Positions 34,690 to 53,902 of a stretch of DNA of 64,000 bases are shown here, in pieces. A program made the position numbers and the translations under genes. The DNA is from Pseudomonadales bacterium (lineage in GTDB: Bacteria > Pseudomonadota > Gammaproteobacteria > Pseudomonadales > Azotimanducaceae), in assembly GCA_028285415.1 (NCBI GenBank), contig JANQPF010000009.1, forward strand, positions 868,001-932,000, read 5' to 3'. The notes beneath the pieces are model-generated. The model did no database searches. It saw nothing but the letters and a program-made list of their open reading frames with translations, and was not told the origin of the DNA. Each line of letters begins with the position of its first letter. Positions within the stretch are counted from its first letter, which is position 1.

Positions 34690-36245
34690 TCGCCCGCGCG
34701 AGCCTGCAGCGTCTCGTCCGGCGCAGGCACCAGCCGAACGATGCGGCCGCCGCTGGCGTGCTCGAGGAGGAGGACAACCTCTCCGTTGATGCCGGTCTCG
34801 ATGTCGCGAATGCGGGCAAGATCGTCGATGAGAAGTTCCTGATGACGCACCCTGCCCTCCTTGATTTCAACGCGGTAGAGGTCTGTCGCCTTCAATGAAC
34901 CGACGAGGAAGCTACCCCGCCAGTCCGGGAACAGGTCACCCGCGTAGATCACAAAGCTCGAGATGGCGGGACTGGGCGTGAAGTTCACGACCGGCTGCTC
35001 GATGTCGGCAAGCTCGAGCTCGGAGCCTTTGTCCCGGCCGTAGGCCACCTCGCTGCCATCGTAGTTCTGTCCCAGCGAAAAGAGTGGCCAGCCGTAGTTG
35101 CGCCCCGGACGCAGCAGGTTGATCTCGTCCCCACCGCGGGGCCCGTGTTCCGTCTCCCAGAGCGCGCGCGTCTCGGGATCGAACTCGAGCCCCTGAGGAC
35201 TGCGGTGACCCACGCTCCAGATGGCTTGCAACACTTTCGGATCATTGGCGTATGGGTTGTCCGTCGGAATTCTGCCGTCGTCGTGCAGACGCAGCACCTT
35301 GCCGTGCGGTGAGGTCATGTCCTGGATCCCGTCCATGCTTTTCATGCCGATGCTCATGAACACGAAACCGTCGGGGTCAAACGCCAGGCGCCCGCCCGCA
35401 GCCACGTCGGAGAACGGAGAATAGTGCACCTTATCGGCCTGCCACAGAATTTCCGCGTCCACCCAGATCCCGTCTCGGATGCGCCCGCGCATGAGCGCAT
35501 TCATGGAAACCGGGCGTTTGAGCTTGCGGCTGACGGCGTTGCAGCCCTCGCAGCGATCCGTGTAGTGCAGGTATATCCACCCGTTGTCCGCGTAATCCGG
35601 ATGTACGGCAACGTCGAGCAGCCAGCCCATGCCGTACTGCAGTCCAACGGAGCTGTCACGGACGTCGTCGTATACCTTCGGCGTGCCGTAGACGAGCCTG
35701 CCTACCTCTCCGGCAGGAGAGACGAGCCGCAAACCGCGCATCTTTTCCGCCACCAGCATGCTGCCGTCCGGCAGCACGGAAAGTGAGTACGGCAGCGGAT
35801 CGAGGCCTTCGGCTATCGTTTCAACGGTAAATCTATAGTGCTCCGAGTCGATCGCAGTTTCAGGCAGCGTCAGCTCGCTTGTGATATTGAAATCGGTATA
35901 CAGCATGCCGCCGCGAAACTCTGCGATCCAAAGCGCCAGACTCTTGATCTCCTGAGCATCGAACACTTCTGCCCAGGCCGGCATGCCGCGATCGGGAAAC
36001 CCGGCGCTGATGTTCCGCACGAGATCGTCAACGCTGTCGCCATGCTGCAGCGCGCCTGCCAGCGGTGTGCCCTGGGCTTCTCCTTCGAGATGCTCGCCGT
36101 GGCAGACGGCACAGTGCTCCACGAACACGCTGGCAAACCGGTCTTCCGGGTCTTGCTCGCGCTCGCCCGTCGCCGCGTGGACTAAGCAGCCGGACAACGC
36201 GGCAACAAAGATCCCACCGCGCAGCATCAATCGGACAACGGACAC
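34686..36245 (-). CDS. Cytochrome c - PQQ-dependent sugar dehydrogenase fusion (lipoprotein)
   Basis: A 519-residue envelope protein. A lipobox-like LSGC follows the first hydrophobic stretch (GIFVAALSGC), suggesting membrane anchoring. A class I cytochrome c domain follows with heme motif CAVCH and distal Met in GFPDRGMPAWAEVF. The main part is a beta-propeller of the glucose/sorbosone dehydrogenase family (LPDGSMLVAEKMRGLRLV, GLQYGMGWLLDVAVHPDY, WETEHGPRGGDEINLL). I chose GTG 36245 because a purine-rich ribosome site precedes it. Electrons from a sugar or alcohol would pass to the attached heme. Confidence 0.87.
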   Translation of the reverse strand: MSVVRLMLRGGIFVAALSGCLVHAATGEREQDPEDRFASVFVEHCAVCHGEHLEGEAQGTPLAGALQHGDSVDDLVRNISAGFPDRGMPAWAEVFDAQEIKSLALWIAEFRGGMLYTDFNITSELTLPETAIDSEHYRFTVETIAEGLDPLPYSLSVLPDGSMLVAEKMRGLRLVSPAGEVGRLVYGTPKVYDDVRDSSVGLQYGMGWLLDVAVHPDYADNGWIYLHYTDRCEGCNAVSRKLKRPVSMNALMRGRIRDGIWVDAEILWQADKVHYSPFSDVAAGGRLAFDPDGFVFMSIGMKSMDGIQDMTSPHGKVLRLHDDGRIPTDNPYANDPKVLQAIWSVGHRSPQGLEFDPETRALWETEHGPRGGDEINLLRPGRNYGWPLFSLGQNYDGSEVAYGRDKGSELELADIEQPVVNFTPSPAISSFVIYAGDLFPDWRGSFLVGSLKATDLYRVEIKEGRVRHQELLIDDLARIRDIETGINGEVVLLLEHASGGRIVRLVPAPDETLQARAGD

Positions 36246-36352
36246 GCTCCTATCTCCCCCTCCGAGCACGCATGATGCGCCTGAGGATAGCACTTTCACC
36301 GGGCGGTGTTAGCATGACGTCCTCGCGATGGGATCCGGATGGGACTAAAAAC

Positions 36353-37363
36353 ATGCGCATCGACGCCCCGGTCAACGCCACGCTCGACAACATCAAAGAC
36401 ACCGCTGTCCGCCTCGAACGGCTCGGCTACGATGGCCTGCGACTCGCCGAGACCAACCATGATCCGTTCCTGCCGCTGACCGTCGCAGCGGAGCACACGC
36501 AAACGCTCGAGCTCGTCACCTCCGTGGCGGTGGCCTTTGCACGCAACCCCATGTCGATGGCCGTGCTGGCGCACGATCTCAATGCGTTTTCCGCCGGACG
36601 GCTCGTGCTGGGTCTGGGCTCCCAGGTAAAGCCGCACATCGAACGCCGTTTCAGCATGCCCTGGCACAAGGCGGCCGCGCAGATGCGCGAGTTCATCGAA
36701 GCCATGAACGCCATTTTCGACTGCTGGTACGACGGGAAGCGTCTGGAATACCAGGGTGAGTACTACCGCCACGATCTCATGCCGGCCACGTTCACACCCG
36801 ACAATAGAGACGCGCCGCGGCCGCGCATTGTGCTGTCCGCAACCGGGCCACTGATGACGAAGGTCGCCGCCCGCGTCGCGGACGGCATGATCATGCATCC
36901 GTTTTCGTCCGAGAAGTACATGCGCGAAGTGACGCTGCCGGCGATCGAGGAAGGTCTTGCCGACCGCGGTCGCGGGCTCGAGGACTTCAGCCTCGACTAC
37001 GCGCCGATGATCGCCGCCGCGGATACGGACGAAGCGATGGACAAAGCCGTGGCGACGCTGCGCGGGCGCATTGCATTCTACGGGTGCACGGTGGCGTACA
37101 AACCGGTGCTGGACATCCACGGCTGGGGAGATTTACAGGATGAGCTGATCGCCCTGAACCGGGCGCACCGCCCGGATGACATGGCGGCGCTCATCACCGA
37201 TGAGATGGTCGAAACGATTGGTATCGTGGGCTCACCGGAGTCGGTCGTCGAGCAGATGAAAAGCCGCTTCGGCGGCGTCATTCGCCGCACCAGCTTCGCC
37301 GGAATCGATCTCGACGACGACCGGCTGCGGGCATTGCTGGAAAGCCTGCGTTTAGACGGCTAA
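36353..37363 (+). CDS. LLM class (F420-type) flavin-dependent oxidoreductase
   Basis: A 336-residue luciferase-like protein resembling the TIGR03617 F420-dependent group: MRIDAPVNATLDNIKDTAV, FARNPMSMAVLAHDLNAF, GRLVLGLGSQVKPHIERRFS and PFSSEKYMREVTLPAIEEG. The ATG at 36353 fits the family opening; an upstream in-frame ATG (36314) would add 13 residues. Whether the host makes F420 is not known from this window, so FMN is the other possible cofactor. Its stop TAA shares bases with the convergent VOC gene. Confidence 0.86.
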   Translation: MRIDAPVNATLDNIKDTAVRLERLGYDGLRLAETNHDPFLPLTVAAEHTQTLELVTSVAVAFARNPMSMAVLAHDLNAFSAGRLVLGLGSQVKPHIERRFSMPWHKAAAQMREFIEAMNAIFDCWYDGKRLEYQGEYYRHDLMPATFTPDNRDAPRPRIVLSATGPLMTKVAARVADGMIMHPFSSEKYMREVTLPAIEEGLADRGRGLEDFSLDYAPMIAAADTDEAMDKAVATLRGRIAFYGCTVAYKPVLDIHGWGDLQDELIALNRAHRPDDMAALITDEMVETIGIVGSPESVVEQMKSRFGGVIRRTSFAGIDLDDDRLRALLESLRLDG

Positions 37364-40724: not shown

Positions 40725-41570
40725 TCAGAAAGTGCGGGACACGCGCTCGGCACGCCGCGCTCGCAACTCCTCTCCCTTGCGAGCCAGCGCCTCGCGGTTT
40801 TCGTCCGTGACCGCCATGTAACGATCTTTCCAATCCTCCGCACCCCAGGACTCGTCCGCGACCAGAGTCGTCTCCGCGGCGACGGCCGCTGCTAAGAGCC
40901 CTACCGCAGCGCGCACGTTGCGGTCCTGCATCTGCCGATCGCCGGGGGTGCCGCAAGGATTGCCCAACGGCGCATCAAAGAAGAAAAACCGCGGTACCCG
41001 GCAATGCTCGACGATGTCGCGAGCAGAACCCATGATGACGGTTGGCATACCCTGTGACTCGAGAAAACGCGCGGTCAGACTCACGGTCTGATGACACACC
41101 GGTCACAACGGCACGAGAAGGGCAACGTCTGCGCCATCGGCAACGAGGCGACGATGAATCTCCGGCGCGTCATGTTCGAGCGTTGCCTTGTGACTGTACT
41201 CGGTCGGCAGACAGTGAAAGTGTCGGGTCAGCGCGCCGATGACGCCTTCGCCAACCAGCGTGTTCAGGCTCGCAACGGGAAAGCAACTGTTGAGATCGTC
41301 CAGATGGGTAGCAGCCTTGTCCCAGGATAGATCGTCTGCATACAGCGAAATCCCGTCTTCCAGCCTGCCGGAATCGACCTTACGCGGCTCGAGCGAAGCG
41401 CGCGGATAGGTGCTCGCGGTGGTGACCACACCCAGCGTACAGTCTGCAAGCGGCGTCGAGAGCTTCGCGAACGGCGCGTTCTCATGCTGCGCGTAACGAT
41501 AGTCGTTCGTGAAACCCTGGGCCCGGTAGTAGTTGTGGGAGCGGTCGATGTAGCGGACAGGTTCACTCAT
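40725..41570 (-). CDS. GrdB/PrdB-like selenoprotein (UxxC, in-frame TGA = Sec156)
   Basis: One minus-strand frame from ATG 41570 to 40725, interrupted only by TGA at 41105-41103. Read as selenocysteine it gives 281 residues. The first 155 end in VALLVPL, then U-P-V-C-H-Q-T, so Sec156 and Cys159 form UxxC. Beyond it lie VIMGSARDIVEHCRVPRFFF and DAPLGNPCGTPGD, which match the conserved region after UGTC in glycine/betaine/D-proline reductase subunit B and the shorter proteobacterial 'selenoprotein B family'. A SECIS-like hairpin follows. The genes for the other glycine reductase subunits are absent, so a reductase of another substrate is likely. It is coupled to the holin-like gene by ATGA. Confidence 0.92.
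41075..41091 (-). promoter_or_regulatory. Candidate bacterial SECIS element of the GrdB-like selenoprotein
   Basis: On the minus strand, starting 11 bases after the TGA, TCAGAC (41091-41086) pairs perfectly with GTCTGA (41080-41075) around loop CGTGA. The apical loop is 17 bases from the UGA and its second base is G, within the published bacterial SECIS limits as I recall them. Confidence 0.75.
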
Positions 41571-43336: not shown

Positions 43337-44746
43337 TCAGGCCGCAAGCAGCGCTCTCGCCTCCGTTGCCTTCAACGTGGCGTCGATGTAACGGCTGACC
43401 GCGGTACAGTTGCGAATCATCTCAATCTTCGGCCACGTTGCCCGCTCGCCCGCCTGAATGAGCTGGAGCGTTTCCTTTTCGGACAGCACCGACAACAGCT
43501 TCGCCGGGTTGAAGAAGCGCGTGGAGGGTGAAATGTTGATATCCGCCGTGTACTCCTGGGTCAGGAGACCAAACCACATGCGGGTCATGATGTTCACGGG
43601 ATAGACGTTGCGAACCAGGTTCATCGTAAACGGGTAGACCGCACGCGAGACGTCACGCACCGCTGCCTGATAGACGGAGGCGAGCTGCGACACCAGCGAC
43701 GTGGAGTGCGGGTCCTGCAGCGCCCACAACACGATCGGATTGGCCTGACTGCTGATGAAGTGGTTGACGCCATACAGCCGTGTCAGACGCCGTGCCGGCA
43801 GGTCGTCAGAAATGGAACCGTCCACCCACTTGCGGGTGGCAATGTAAGGTTTGCGTTCGCCGGACGCCGTTTTCGCCGCAAGCGTCACCGGCGGGAAGAT
43901 GCCCGGGATGGAGCAGGACGCAACCACGGCTTCCCGGATGCAGCAGTTCGGCGAAATGATGGCGTTCAAAAGACGCGAGCGCTGGTTGACCGCCGTCGGC
44001 GCCACCGACACGTTGATGTAACGACCGGTTTCCTCGAGGGCCTCCTCGAACGTCATATCCGGAATGATCTCATGCACCAGGTCAACGAGATCTTTCCGCC
44101 GAACCTGGCTGCCGGTGCGCCGTTCATCCCCGCCGCTGAGCGCATTGAGAATTTCGTCCGTCGAGAGCATGCGCGACAGCTCGTCCTGGTGGCGGGTGCC
44201 CGCAACGGCGGTGACAATCGATCCCGCGCTCGCGCCGGAGAGGACGTTCGGCAACAGGTGCTGCTCGCTGAGCGCCTTCACGACGCCGATATGGAAAGGT
44301 CCGAGCGAACCGGCCCCGCTCAGCATCAACGCGCTGCGTCCAAAACAATCCGCCGCACGCCGGTAGAATGCCAGTCTTTCCTGCATGCTGATCTCGTTTT
44401 CCGGTACGTTCTCGAGGTCCTCGAGCGCACCCACCATCTCGCTGATGTAGTTGGTAATGAGCTCTTTGGTGCCGTACTCGGCGCGGCCATAAAGGGCAGG
44501 TGATCCCATACCCGCCATGTTGCCGTGAAAACCCTCGTGCAGATAAAACAGCAGGCGTTGCGTGTCGCCGGAGTTGCGGACGTCGCGGATTTCATCATAA
44601 CGGCGGCGAATCACACGGTAGTCGTAGAGGGTGCTCTCCTCGCGGCGCCGCCAGTTGGCCGCACCGGTCAGCTCGTCTTTGCGCTGCGCATCTACTTTCC
44701 AGTCTTCATAAGTATCAATTTCGGCCACCGCTGCGCACATGGGCAC
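43337..44746 (-). CDS. Patatin-like phospholipase with DUF3336
   Basis: A 469-residue protein. The first 130 residues match DUF3336 (YEDWKVDAQRKDELTGAANW, YDYRVIRRRYDEIRDVRNSG). The patatin part shows the oxyanion loop LSGAGSLGPFHIGVVKAL, nucleophile GASAG and catalytic dyad Asp in KWVDGSISDD. It should hydrolyse lipid acyl esters at the membrane. The layout resembles the eukaryotic TGL3-5 lipases and their bacterial relatives. Confidence 0.9.
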   Translation of the reverse strand: MPMCAAVAEIDTYEDWKVDAQRKDELTGAANWRRREESTLYDYRVIRRRYDEIRDVRNSGDTQRLLFYLHEGFHGNMAGMGSPALYGRAEYGTKELITNYISEMVGALEDLENVPENEISMQERLAFYRRAADCFGRSALMLSGAGSLGPFHIGVVKALSEQHLLPNVLSGASAGSIVTAVAGTRHQDELSRMLSTDEILNALSGGDERRTGSQVRRKDLVDLVHEIIPDMTFEEALEETGRYINVSVAPTAVNQRSRLLNAIISPNCCIREAVVASCSIPGIFPPVTLAAKTASGERKPYIATRKWVDGSISDDLPARRLTRLYGVNHFISSQANPIVLWALQDPHSTSLVSQLASVYQAAVRDVSRAVYPFTMNLVRNVYPVNIMTRMWFGLLTQEYTADINISPSTRFFNPAKLLSVLSEKETLQLIQAGERATWPKIEMIRNCTAVSRYIDATLKATEARALLAA

Positions 44747-44896: not shown

Positions 44897-44982
44897 CGGT
44901 TGAAGACCCCATGGGATTGATATATATTTCTTTTCGCTATATCTATATTCTATTTTGTTATTTATCTGAGGCCGCCCCAGCC

Positions 44983-45831
44983 GTGGAAATCGCCGCTTTT
45001 TTCGATCCGGACACGTTCAGCTACAGCTACGTGGTTGCCGTAGGCGGTGAAGCCGCCATCATCGACCCGGTGCTCGACTACGACCCCGTCGCAGGACGCA
45101 CCACCACCCACAACGCAGATCGATTGATCAGCCATGCGCGCGCACACAATCTCAAGGTCCAATGGATCCTCGAGACACACGTGCATGCCGATCACCTGAC
45201 CGCCGCCCGGTATGTGCAGGAGACGCTCGGTGGAAGCACCGTCATTGGCGAACGCGTGACCGCCGTGCAGGACATCTTCGCCGGCGTCTTCAACGCAACG
45301 GACGTCGTCGCGAACGGCAGTCAGTTCGACCTGCTGGTTGCTGACGGCGCTGAGCTCGTTCTGGGTGATGGTGTCATCCGTGTCATGCACACGCCTGGTC
45401 ACACGCCTGCCTGCGTCACGTACGTGATCGAAGACGCGGCCTTTGTTGGCGACACCTTGTTCATGCCCGACTACGGCACGGCCCGCACGGACTTTCCAGG
45501 CGGCGACGCCGTGGCGCTTTTCGGTTCCATCCAGAAAATTCTGTCCCTGCCGGATGAAACGCGCCTTTTCATGTGTCACGACTATGGGTCTGCAACCCGC
45601 TCCGAGTATCAACACGAAACATCCGTTGCAGCTGAGCGGAACGACAACATTCATCTTGCAGGCGCCGCCGACGCGGCGGCGTTTGCCGAGTTTCGCGAAG
45701 CTCGTGACAAGGATCTTGCCGCGCCGCGCCTGCTCTACCCCGCCGTGCAATTCAACATGCGCGGCGGCAACTTTCCCCCGGCAGAGAGCAACGGCCAGGT
45801 GTATTTCAAAATCCCGGTAAAACGACACTGA
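44983..45831 (+). CDS. MBL-fold metallo-hydrolase (Blh/persulfide-dioxygenase-like)
   Basis: A 282-residue metallo-beta-lactamase fold protein. The metal motif HVHADH is at 66-71, followed by HTPGHTPACVTYV, VGDTLFMPDYGTARTDF and CHDYGSA. This pattern is that of ETHE1-like persulfide dioxygenases and of Blh in the bigR operon. GTG 44983 (GAGG 11 bases upstream) gives the canonical IAAFFDPDTFSYSYVV start; the ATG at 44911 lies in an AT-rich, hydrophobic-coding stretch and is less likely. The TauE transporter starts one base after its stop. Confidence 0.87.
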   Translation: MEIAAFFDPDTFSYSYVVAVGGEAAIIDPVLDYDPVAGRTTTHNADRLISHARAHNLKVQWILETHVHADHLTAARYVQETLGGSTVIGERVTAVQDIFAGVFNATDVVANGSQFDLLVADGAELVLGDGVIRVMHTPGHTPACVTYVIEDAAFVGDTLFMPDYGTARTDFPGGDAVALFGSIQKILSLPDETRLFMCHDYGSATRSEYQHETSVAAERNDNIHLAGAADAAAFAEFREARDKDLAAPRLLYPAVQFNMRGGNFPPAESNGQVYFKIPVKRH

Positions 45832-53275: not shown

Positions 53276-53902
53276 TTACATTGATACCAATCGCCCCTTG
53301 CGAGCCGCATCGACGAACCCCGGTGGTGGCGGAGCGCAAAGCTGCTGCCCGAGAATGCCACTCTGACTGACAAAGAGGTCAACGAGCTCTGGATCCAGCT
53401 CGTGATGAGCACGGGCGCAAACGAGATCCAGAGCAGCCAGGTGGTCAGCGATGACGGGGTTTTCCGGCATATTCGATGCCATGTTCGATGCATAGGTTTT
53501 CACGACGGCGGCAAGACGCGCGACCAGCGGAATGAGTTCACCCGCCGGGATTCGATTGGCGGCGCCATCCCAACGGCAGTTGCCAAAGCGCACGATCGTA
53601 CCGAGCACCGCTTCAAACGGCCTCGGGCGAACGGATAATTGCGCTCGGCGCGGCGTTGGGACGTTTGCTGCAGAGCCGCCGCAGAATCCCGCGCACACGG
53701 GAAACCAGAAGAGTTCCCGATACGACAAGCGTGTATTCAGATACCCCTGCTTAACCAGCGCGTCGCAGTAAATTTCACCCACGCGCCGGGCCATGAGCCG
53801 TGGCGCCGACATCGTCCGGGAGCGGTCGCCAAAGAGCGCCTCCAGATCTGCATGCCAGGCCGTTGCCTGATGTTCGTCCATATCCACAGATTGATTACCC
53901 AC
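53276..53902 (-). CDS. Hypothetical protein, 208 residues
   Basis: I do not recognise the family. The protein is soluble, with a GYLNTRLSYRELFWFPVCAG segment and a helical C-half (LVARLAAVVKTYASNMASNM, HLAALDLVCARAHHELDPEL). Three or four cysteines (in CAGFCGG and near the ends) might bind metal or form disulfides. GTG 53902 is the start of the open frame; ATG 53881 is the alternative. It lies between the regulator cluster and WS/DGAT and is isolated by gaps on both sides. An imperfect direct repeat covers its start. Confidence 0.6.
   Translation of the reverse strand: MGNQSVDMDEHQATAWHADLEALFGDRSRTMSAPRLMARRVGEIYCDALVKQGYLNTRLSYRELFWFPVCAGFCGGSAANVPTPRRAQLSVRPRPFEAVLGTIVRFGNCRWDGAANRIPAGELIPLVARLAAVVKTYASNMASNMPENPVIADHLAALDLVCARAHHELDPELVDLFVSQSGILGQQLCAPPPPGFVDAARKGRLVSM

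Follow-up and report, generated by a model that had tools for sequence, protein, structure and literature searches.

In the mechanism proposed in PMC3091704, the selenol of the proline reductase protein PrdB attacks the alpha carbon of a proline held on the pyruvoyl group of PrdA, a cysteine of PrdB splits the selenoether and PrdC reduces the Se-S bond. Selenoproteins labelled proline reductase PrdB have been recorded from the sea as well, with 42 Sargasso Sea genes and 235 Sec sequences of the GOS survey (PMC1088965, PMC2398784), and the latter survey places the family with the most abundant ones of its samples (PMC2398784). A marine selenoprotein family of this abundance is named after a fermentation enzyme of anaerobes.

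The window analysed here is a stretch of 64,000 nucleotides from a Pseudomonadales bacterium. On its minus strand, one frame is open from 41570 to 41106 (155 aa from the ATG at 41570-41568) and again from 41102 to 40725, where it terminates at a TGA (40727-40725); the TGA at 41105-41103 is its sole break. The initial annotation had joined these two stretches across the single in-frame TGA, and the joined reading stands, as both lie in the same frame and give, when read through, a protein of 281 aa with Sec at position 156 within LVPL-U-PVCHQ. The gene at 41570-40725 almost certainly encodes a Sec-decoded PrdB-like protein, judging from the comparison with its relatives. The best explanation overall, to which we assign a probability of roughly 0.6, is a Sec-containing PrdB relative that would act without PrdA/GrdE and PrdC, by the reductive mechanism set out below.

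Kinship, missing partners and proposed reaction

The best NCBIfam profile was TIGR04483 (PrdB), with an E-value of 2.4e-18 and 66.5 bits, which does not reach the curated cut-off of 300; the betaine, glycine and sarcosine B proteins ranked after it and were far weaker. TIGR04483 matched all 36 members of alignment A3, and the GRDB Pfam model PF07355 gave an E-value of 0.3 only, below its gathering score. The kinship to PrdB and GrdB proposed earlier is upheld and can be refined, the protein being closer to PrdB than to GrdB; by profile and alignment it is assigned to the PrdB/GrdB-like superfamily. In alignment A7, Sec fell on Sec with two annotated PrdB proteins, so that UPVC is indeed the equivalent of UGTC. 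Cys159 (codon 41096-41094, minus strand) is put forward as the resolving partner within the UxxC pair; it was invariant in alignments A1 and A3 and stood opposite the Cys of the PrdB motif UGTC. In the tree, PrdB fell outside the subfamily of the window protein.

No match to PF09338, the family of PrdA and GrdE, was found in the genome, of which the assembly is 99% complete, with a model that does detect real PrdA. Of 97 genomes searched, a single one matched, leaving 96 without. PrdC (TIGR04481) had no match in the genome either. The earlier remark that no other glycine or proline reductase subunit is near was correct for the neighbourhood and extends, for PF09338 and PrdC, to the whole genome. 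In the absence of PrdA, the known PrdB chemistry could not proceed as described. The sole PF09338 protein among the 97 genomes is that of G054 (L053/L164), where a glycine-reductase-type pair may exist; the open frame adjoining its gene resembles, by eye, the start of a GrdB.

The genome of the window encodes three COX1-family oxidases, so the bacterium very likely respires oxygen, in agreement with the aerobic host assumed at the outset. Six PrdB-like TGA genes are present in it, the window gene and five paralogues elsewhere (L055-L059, on contigs C30, C11, C15 and C2); a seventh match proved to be the second piece of the C30 gene. Three of the six motifs read UPVCHQ, the others UPLDHQ, UPLCTR and UPNCTR. 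As the C15 paralogue carries Asp for the second Cys (U-P-L-D), the wider family does not always keep this Cys. Against a 2016 survey in which 110 organisms account for 131 proline reductase selenoproteins (PMC5029168), six in one genome is unusual. An MlrC/M81-family gene begins in overlap with the stop of the C11 paralogue (L056, 10445), and the two likely form a two-gene operon.

An AlphaFold2 model of the protein was obtained with a pLDDT of 93.5 and a pTM of 0.92, in which Sec156 lies between a strand (149-153) and a helix (157-172). The PDB fold search returned nothing at an E-value of 0.001 or better, the best hit (0.027) being a LacI-type domain with a meaningless TM of 0.19. Relatives of known structure were not found by sequence at an E-value of 1 or better, and one sequence-profile match against the PDB at 0.35 was taken as chance. 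Away from Sec, alignment A3 showed Y7, Y15, TT50-51, W83, D92, Y125, R194 and PLGN 201-204 to be invariant, and so many invariant residues far from Sec suggest a specific substrate pocket.

Sec, a Cys close to it and a probable pocket are retained, but PrdA and PrdC were not found, and from this we infer a self-sufficient Sec reductase. The protein very probably functions without PrdA and PrdC. It is not a proline reductase of the clostridial type but most likely a Sec/Cys reductase that needs no partner, in a host that respires. Placed where a helix begins, right after a core strand, Sec156 would serve as the nucleophile. It would attack a carbon (or heteroatom) poor in electrons, in a small substrate with a carbonyl group, with no need for a pyruvoyl adduct. 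Cys159 would then resolve the product, leaving a Se-S bond, and the selenol would be restored by thiols of general use, for instance the thioredoxin or the glutathione system. The five paralogues may represent versions for other substrates. That the reaction is the reductive cleavage of a carbon-heteroatom bond is a tentative proposal, and a somewhat doubtful one. It is improbable, as a more specific version, that partner-free Sec enzymes, six of them in one genome, cleave C-halogen, C-N or C-S bonds beside a carbonyl in aerobic Proteobacteria with thiols as the electron source. The substrates of such enzymes would perhaps be CoA thioesters, in view of the gene family found 3' of the Cys forms in 8 of 17 loci, a CoA-transferase in the two members checked.

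The main rival to a partner-free reductase is a Sec/Cys thiol peroxidase or thiol-disulfide oxidoreductase, which would remove peroxides or repair oxidised small molecules; we regard it as possible but rather unlikely. UxxC is a frequent motif in the tables of marine selenoprotein families given by PMC2398784 and PMC1088965, a peroxidase activity of GrdB is named in a title cited by PMC3091704, and the COX1-family oxidases point to aerobic respiration. Such an enzyme would nevertheless have to be one that matches neither peroxiredoxin, thioredoxin nor glutaredoxin in Pfam or NCBIfam and for which the PDB fold search gave nothing significant. The invariant residues away from Sec suggest a specific substrate pocket, and six diverged copies would suggest different substrates.

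Far less survives of the literature label, a subunit of a D-proline (or glycine-type) reductase, which is very unlikely to apply here. The marine family carries this label in PMC1088965 and PMC2398784 and PrdB is the best profile, but the score lies far below the cut-off, the motif reads UPVCHQ in place of UGTCHR, PrdB stands outside the subfamily in the tree, and neither PF09338 nor PrdC was found in the genome. With the pyruvoyl subunit lacking a match in nearly all genomes searched, PrdC not found here and six Sec copies in one genome, the printed function is very likely wrong for the group. For assigning what would be a Sec-dependent reaction of aerobic bacteria, the Sec and Cys forms provide clean test material.

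The in-frame TGA and the downstream stem-loop

Relatives were collected by a scan with one genome per species, which gave 484 encoded relatives, and the best 80 of these were kept; they match the window protein across most of its length. The patterns permitted any residue at the Sec site, so TGA was not selected for, and the view is that of the nearest 80 of 484. The TGA at 41105-41103, the codon of U156 in U-P-V-C-H-Q, was found at the Sec site in all 81 sequences, i.e. these 80 and the window (77 loci and the window by motif, three read directly). The 81 are partly dependent, with 70 distinct 45-nt stretches among 78. Homologues ending naturally at this codon, which would have spoken for a true stop, were looked for and not seen in any of the 81.

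In a set of 146 genomes, a homologue was present in 83, and among the rows listed each had one TGA with few exceptions, namely two rows with an additional stop and one genome (G065) with Cys at the site. Across 398 genomes of the phylum, homologues occurred in 16, at 23 places. Fifteen of these places had no TGA and all carried Cys instead (PNCPVCHQ, PNCPICHQ or PLCPVCHQ); six had the TGA in the source genome and two in G279. Cys also occupies the Sec site in two Alphaproteobacterial plasmid genes. In the tree, the Cys member L200 lies inside Sec members and the Sec member L212 inside a mainly Cys sister clade, so Sec and Cys seem to have been swapped more than once, some of the forks being weakly supported.

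Beyond the TGA, comparison of 123-124 codons with the relative L018 gave 34, 27 and 76 differences at codon positions 1, 2 and 3, and against four orthologues the differences likewise fell mainly at third positions. The downstream stretch therefore evolves as protein. The reading of the TGA as an artefact or a true stop (a sequencing error, a pseudogene or two separate genes) has a negligible chance of being correct: the program-made ORF list does give the two halves separately, and a perfect 6-bp stem is by itself not rare among TGAs of the window, but the TGA occupies the same codon in all sequences compared, from many assemblies, none ends there, and both conservation and third-position bias persist past it.

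The perfect six-base-pair stem announced by the initial annotation is present at 41091-41075 on the minus strand, beginning 11 nt 3' of the TGA, with arms at 41091-41086 and 41080-41075 and a loop CGTGA (CGUGA in the RNA). Taken alone it is weak. The single-sequence fold of the window stretch had a z of -0.79, with 36 of 200 shuffles folding at least as well, and a perfect 6-bp stem at the same spacing follows 75 of the 2045 TGA triplets counted on the two strands together (about 4%); of the 27 window TGAs with an open frame before and after them, two have one, TGA 41105-41103 included. The best single-sequence folds of the paralogues C30 and C2:128989 lacked the proposed stem.

Its significance comes from the comparative evidence, that is pairing, double changes and the conserved TGA, and not from the lone sequence. 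In 75 aligned sequences (the window, the five paralogues and 69 distinct relatives), 97.1% of the stem cells were paired, against a shuffled mean of 88.3%, and 41 cells were changed on both sides, against 10.6; neither value was reached by any of 500 shuffles. Double changes affected four of the six stem pairs, a number also reached by 13 of the 500 shuffles, and the other two pairs varied solely through non-pairing cells. When the partner was slid by one to three columns, pairing was 37.1% at most. Five and four of the six pairs were retained in two paralogues whose stem letters differ considerably. A SECIS stem-loop conserved by compensatory change is thus indicated after the TGA, and by comparison it directs the decoding of the UGA as Sec.

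The covariance model R1, built from these sequences, scored 61.0 bits at 41091-41075 in the window, which is part of its training set, with the next site at 15.2 bits. Across the genome as a whole, its six PrdB-like genes, all in the training set as well, scored 34.7-61.9 bits and the next site 20.0. At gathering thresholds, Rfam gave no match in the window. Two other sites in the window were dismissed as selenoprotein candidates. A 6-bp stem also follows the TGA at 43339 (minus strand), where, however, the frame beyond the TGA is antisense to an acyl-CoA dehydrogenase gene. The site at 53381, which the model scored at 15.2 bits, showed no proper stem, and its frame is closed by a stop 22 codons upstream; after the site the frame is open for 59 codons, up to the end of the stretch that was read.

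The machinery for Sec is present in the genome, so the selenoprotein reading does not fail for want of it. Contig C4 carries SelA (523.7 bits) next to SelB (409.9 bits) and tRNA-Sec, and contig C21 carries SelD (271 bits). Among the 146 genomes, 69 had both homologue and SelB, 14 the homologue only, eight SelB only and 55 neither, an association with a Fisher p of 2.3e-18, a statistic that ignores kinship. Within family f1 the counts were 68, 14, three and six, and the association, again irrespective of kinship, was much weaker (p 0.003). The limit for SelB (E 1e-75) is strict, so that fragments of the gene could be missed. Of the 14 homologue genomes without SelB at this limit, eight are less than 91% complete and six are at least 91% complete (G009, G029, G055, G057, G079, G080).

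TGA, Cys at the TGA-less loci, stem covariation and Sec machinery together agree with the selenoprotein reading given initially. Genome-wide use of TGA for tryptophan or another residue, with the TGA within an open frame in its favour, is the least credible reading of all, given that the selenoprotein gene and its upstream neighbour both terminate at TGA, that SelB and a tRNA for Sec (anticodon tca) occur in the genome, and that the aligned residue is Cys in 15/15 TGA-less loci.

Genomic neighbourhood and taxonomic spread

Directly upstream of the gene, on the same strand, lies a PF04020-family gene (41941-41567), the stop of which overlaps the selenoprotein ATG by 4 nt (ATGA); the overlap suggests translational coupling. 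Only one of 42 upstream neighbours scanned matched PF04020, so this gene is not a conserved partner. Downstream, a gene for a GntR-type regulator (40609-40232, minus strand) stands beside an ABC transporter gene as context, and was matched by one of 33 downstream neighbours scanned.

Open frames around the 80 loci and the window were clustered, with genes called by a simple ORF script, so that some frames may be spurious. A conserved operon was not supported, as no general partner appeared and the next most shared clusters were lineage-specific or antisense frames. The 33 downstream same-strand neighbours, picked by hand, included seven HpcH/HpaI aldolases and six FAD oxidases; the 42 upstream neighbours, on either strand, included eight alpha/beta hydrolases, six amidohydrolases and four CoA-transferases. 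No more than a hint comes from the Cys-form relatives in genomes of 6-9 Mb, where one gene family lies directly 3' in 8 of 17 loci (L201, L203, L204, L206-L210), and both members checked by Pfam belong to CoA-transferase family III.

Two other genes of the window were noted. The product of 44929-45828 has a metallo-beta-lactamase fold, and its closest match is a bifunctional sulfur transferase/dioxygenase, of which it resembles the dioxygenase half (343.7 bits, below cut-off). At 36185-37360, an LLM-class oxidoreductase scored above the cut-off of the F420-dependent TIGR03617 (415.2 bits), a match that suggests F420 use in the bacterium.

Among named relatives, the closest are drafts from Gammaproteobacteria, UBA7803 and UBA4421 for example. 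Homologues were also found in records titled Rhodospirillales, Myxococcales and Chloroflexi. Most of the records are metagenome bins, some of them probably with binning errors. L113 (Gammaproteobacteria) and L114 (Chloroflexota) share the same coordinates and neighbours, which makes a binning error likely in one of them. Plasmid records gave 24 matches; among the 20 listed, 16 are annotated prdB and two carry the Cys forms used in the alignment.

Comparison with known systems

Terrisporobacter and Peptoclostridium, the hosts of the two PrdB proteins compared, are anaerobes. Their PrdB proteins share with the window protein the aligned Sec, the UxxC followed by His and a downstream P-[LM]-G motif, with LTAG-U-GTCHR and FTAG-U-GTCHR standing against LVPL-U-PVCHQ. 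Identity is 23%, however, and they are shorter, at 241 and 237 aa against 281 aa. In Terrisporobacter, PrdA adjoins PrdB, whereas no PrdA was found in the genome of the window. Likeness to GrdB (TIGR01917/01918) is confined to a weak match in the C-terminal third (5.1e-6 and 3.8e-6); the GrdB models span about 430 positions against 281 aa, and a GrdE-type partner was not found in the genome.

The alignment proposed by the initial annotation was made with PrdB as above and also with the products of two plasmid genes, from Roseomonas and Haematobacter, which carry the NCBI name 'glycine/sarcosine/betaine reductase selenoprotein B family protein'. These are 42% and 38% identical to the window protein (A7) and share the PVCHQ/PICHQ motif, but have Cys for Sec and lie in the sister clade. 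FarB of fluoroacetate-degrading Synergistota, set beside the window protein by description only, is a GrdB-type Sec protein proposed in PMC10838667 to attack a C-F bond where no Schiff base is possible; it works with FarE and parts of the glycine reductase.

A literature search that left most subscription papers outside its reach yielded none on the function of the group or on the absence of its partners. The marine 'PrdB' family of PMC1088965 and PMC2398784 shares Sec in UxxC and homology to PrdB/GrdB with the window protein, a placement made by motif and homology only. These surveys, as far as available, name its function after the clostridial enzyme and do not treat partner absence. The family itself is thus already in print, and what the present locus adds to it is the absence of the partners, the six copies in one genome and the covariation of the SECIS stem.
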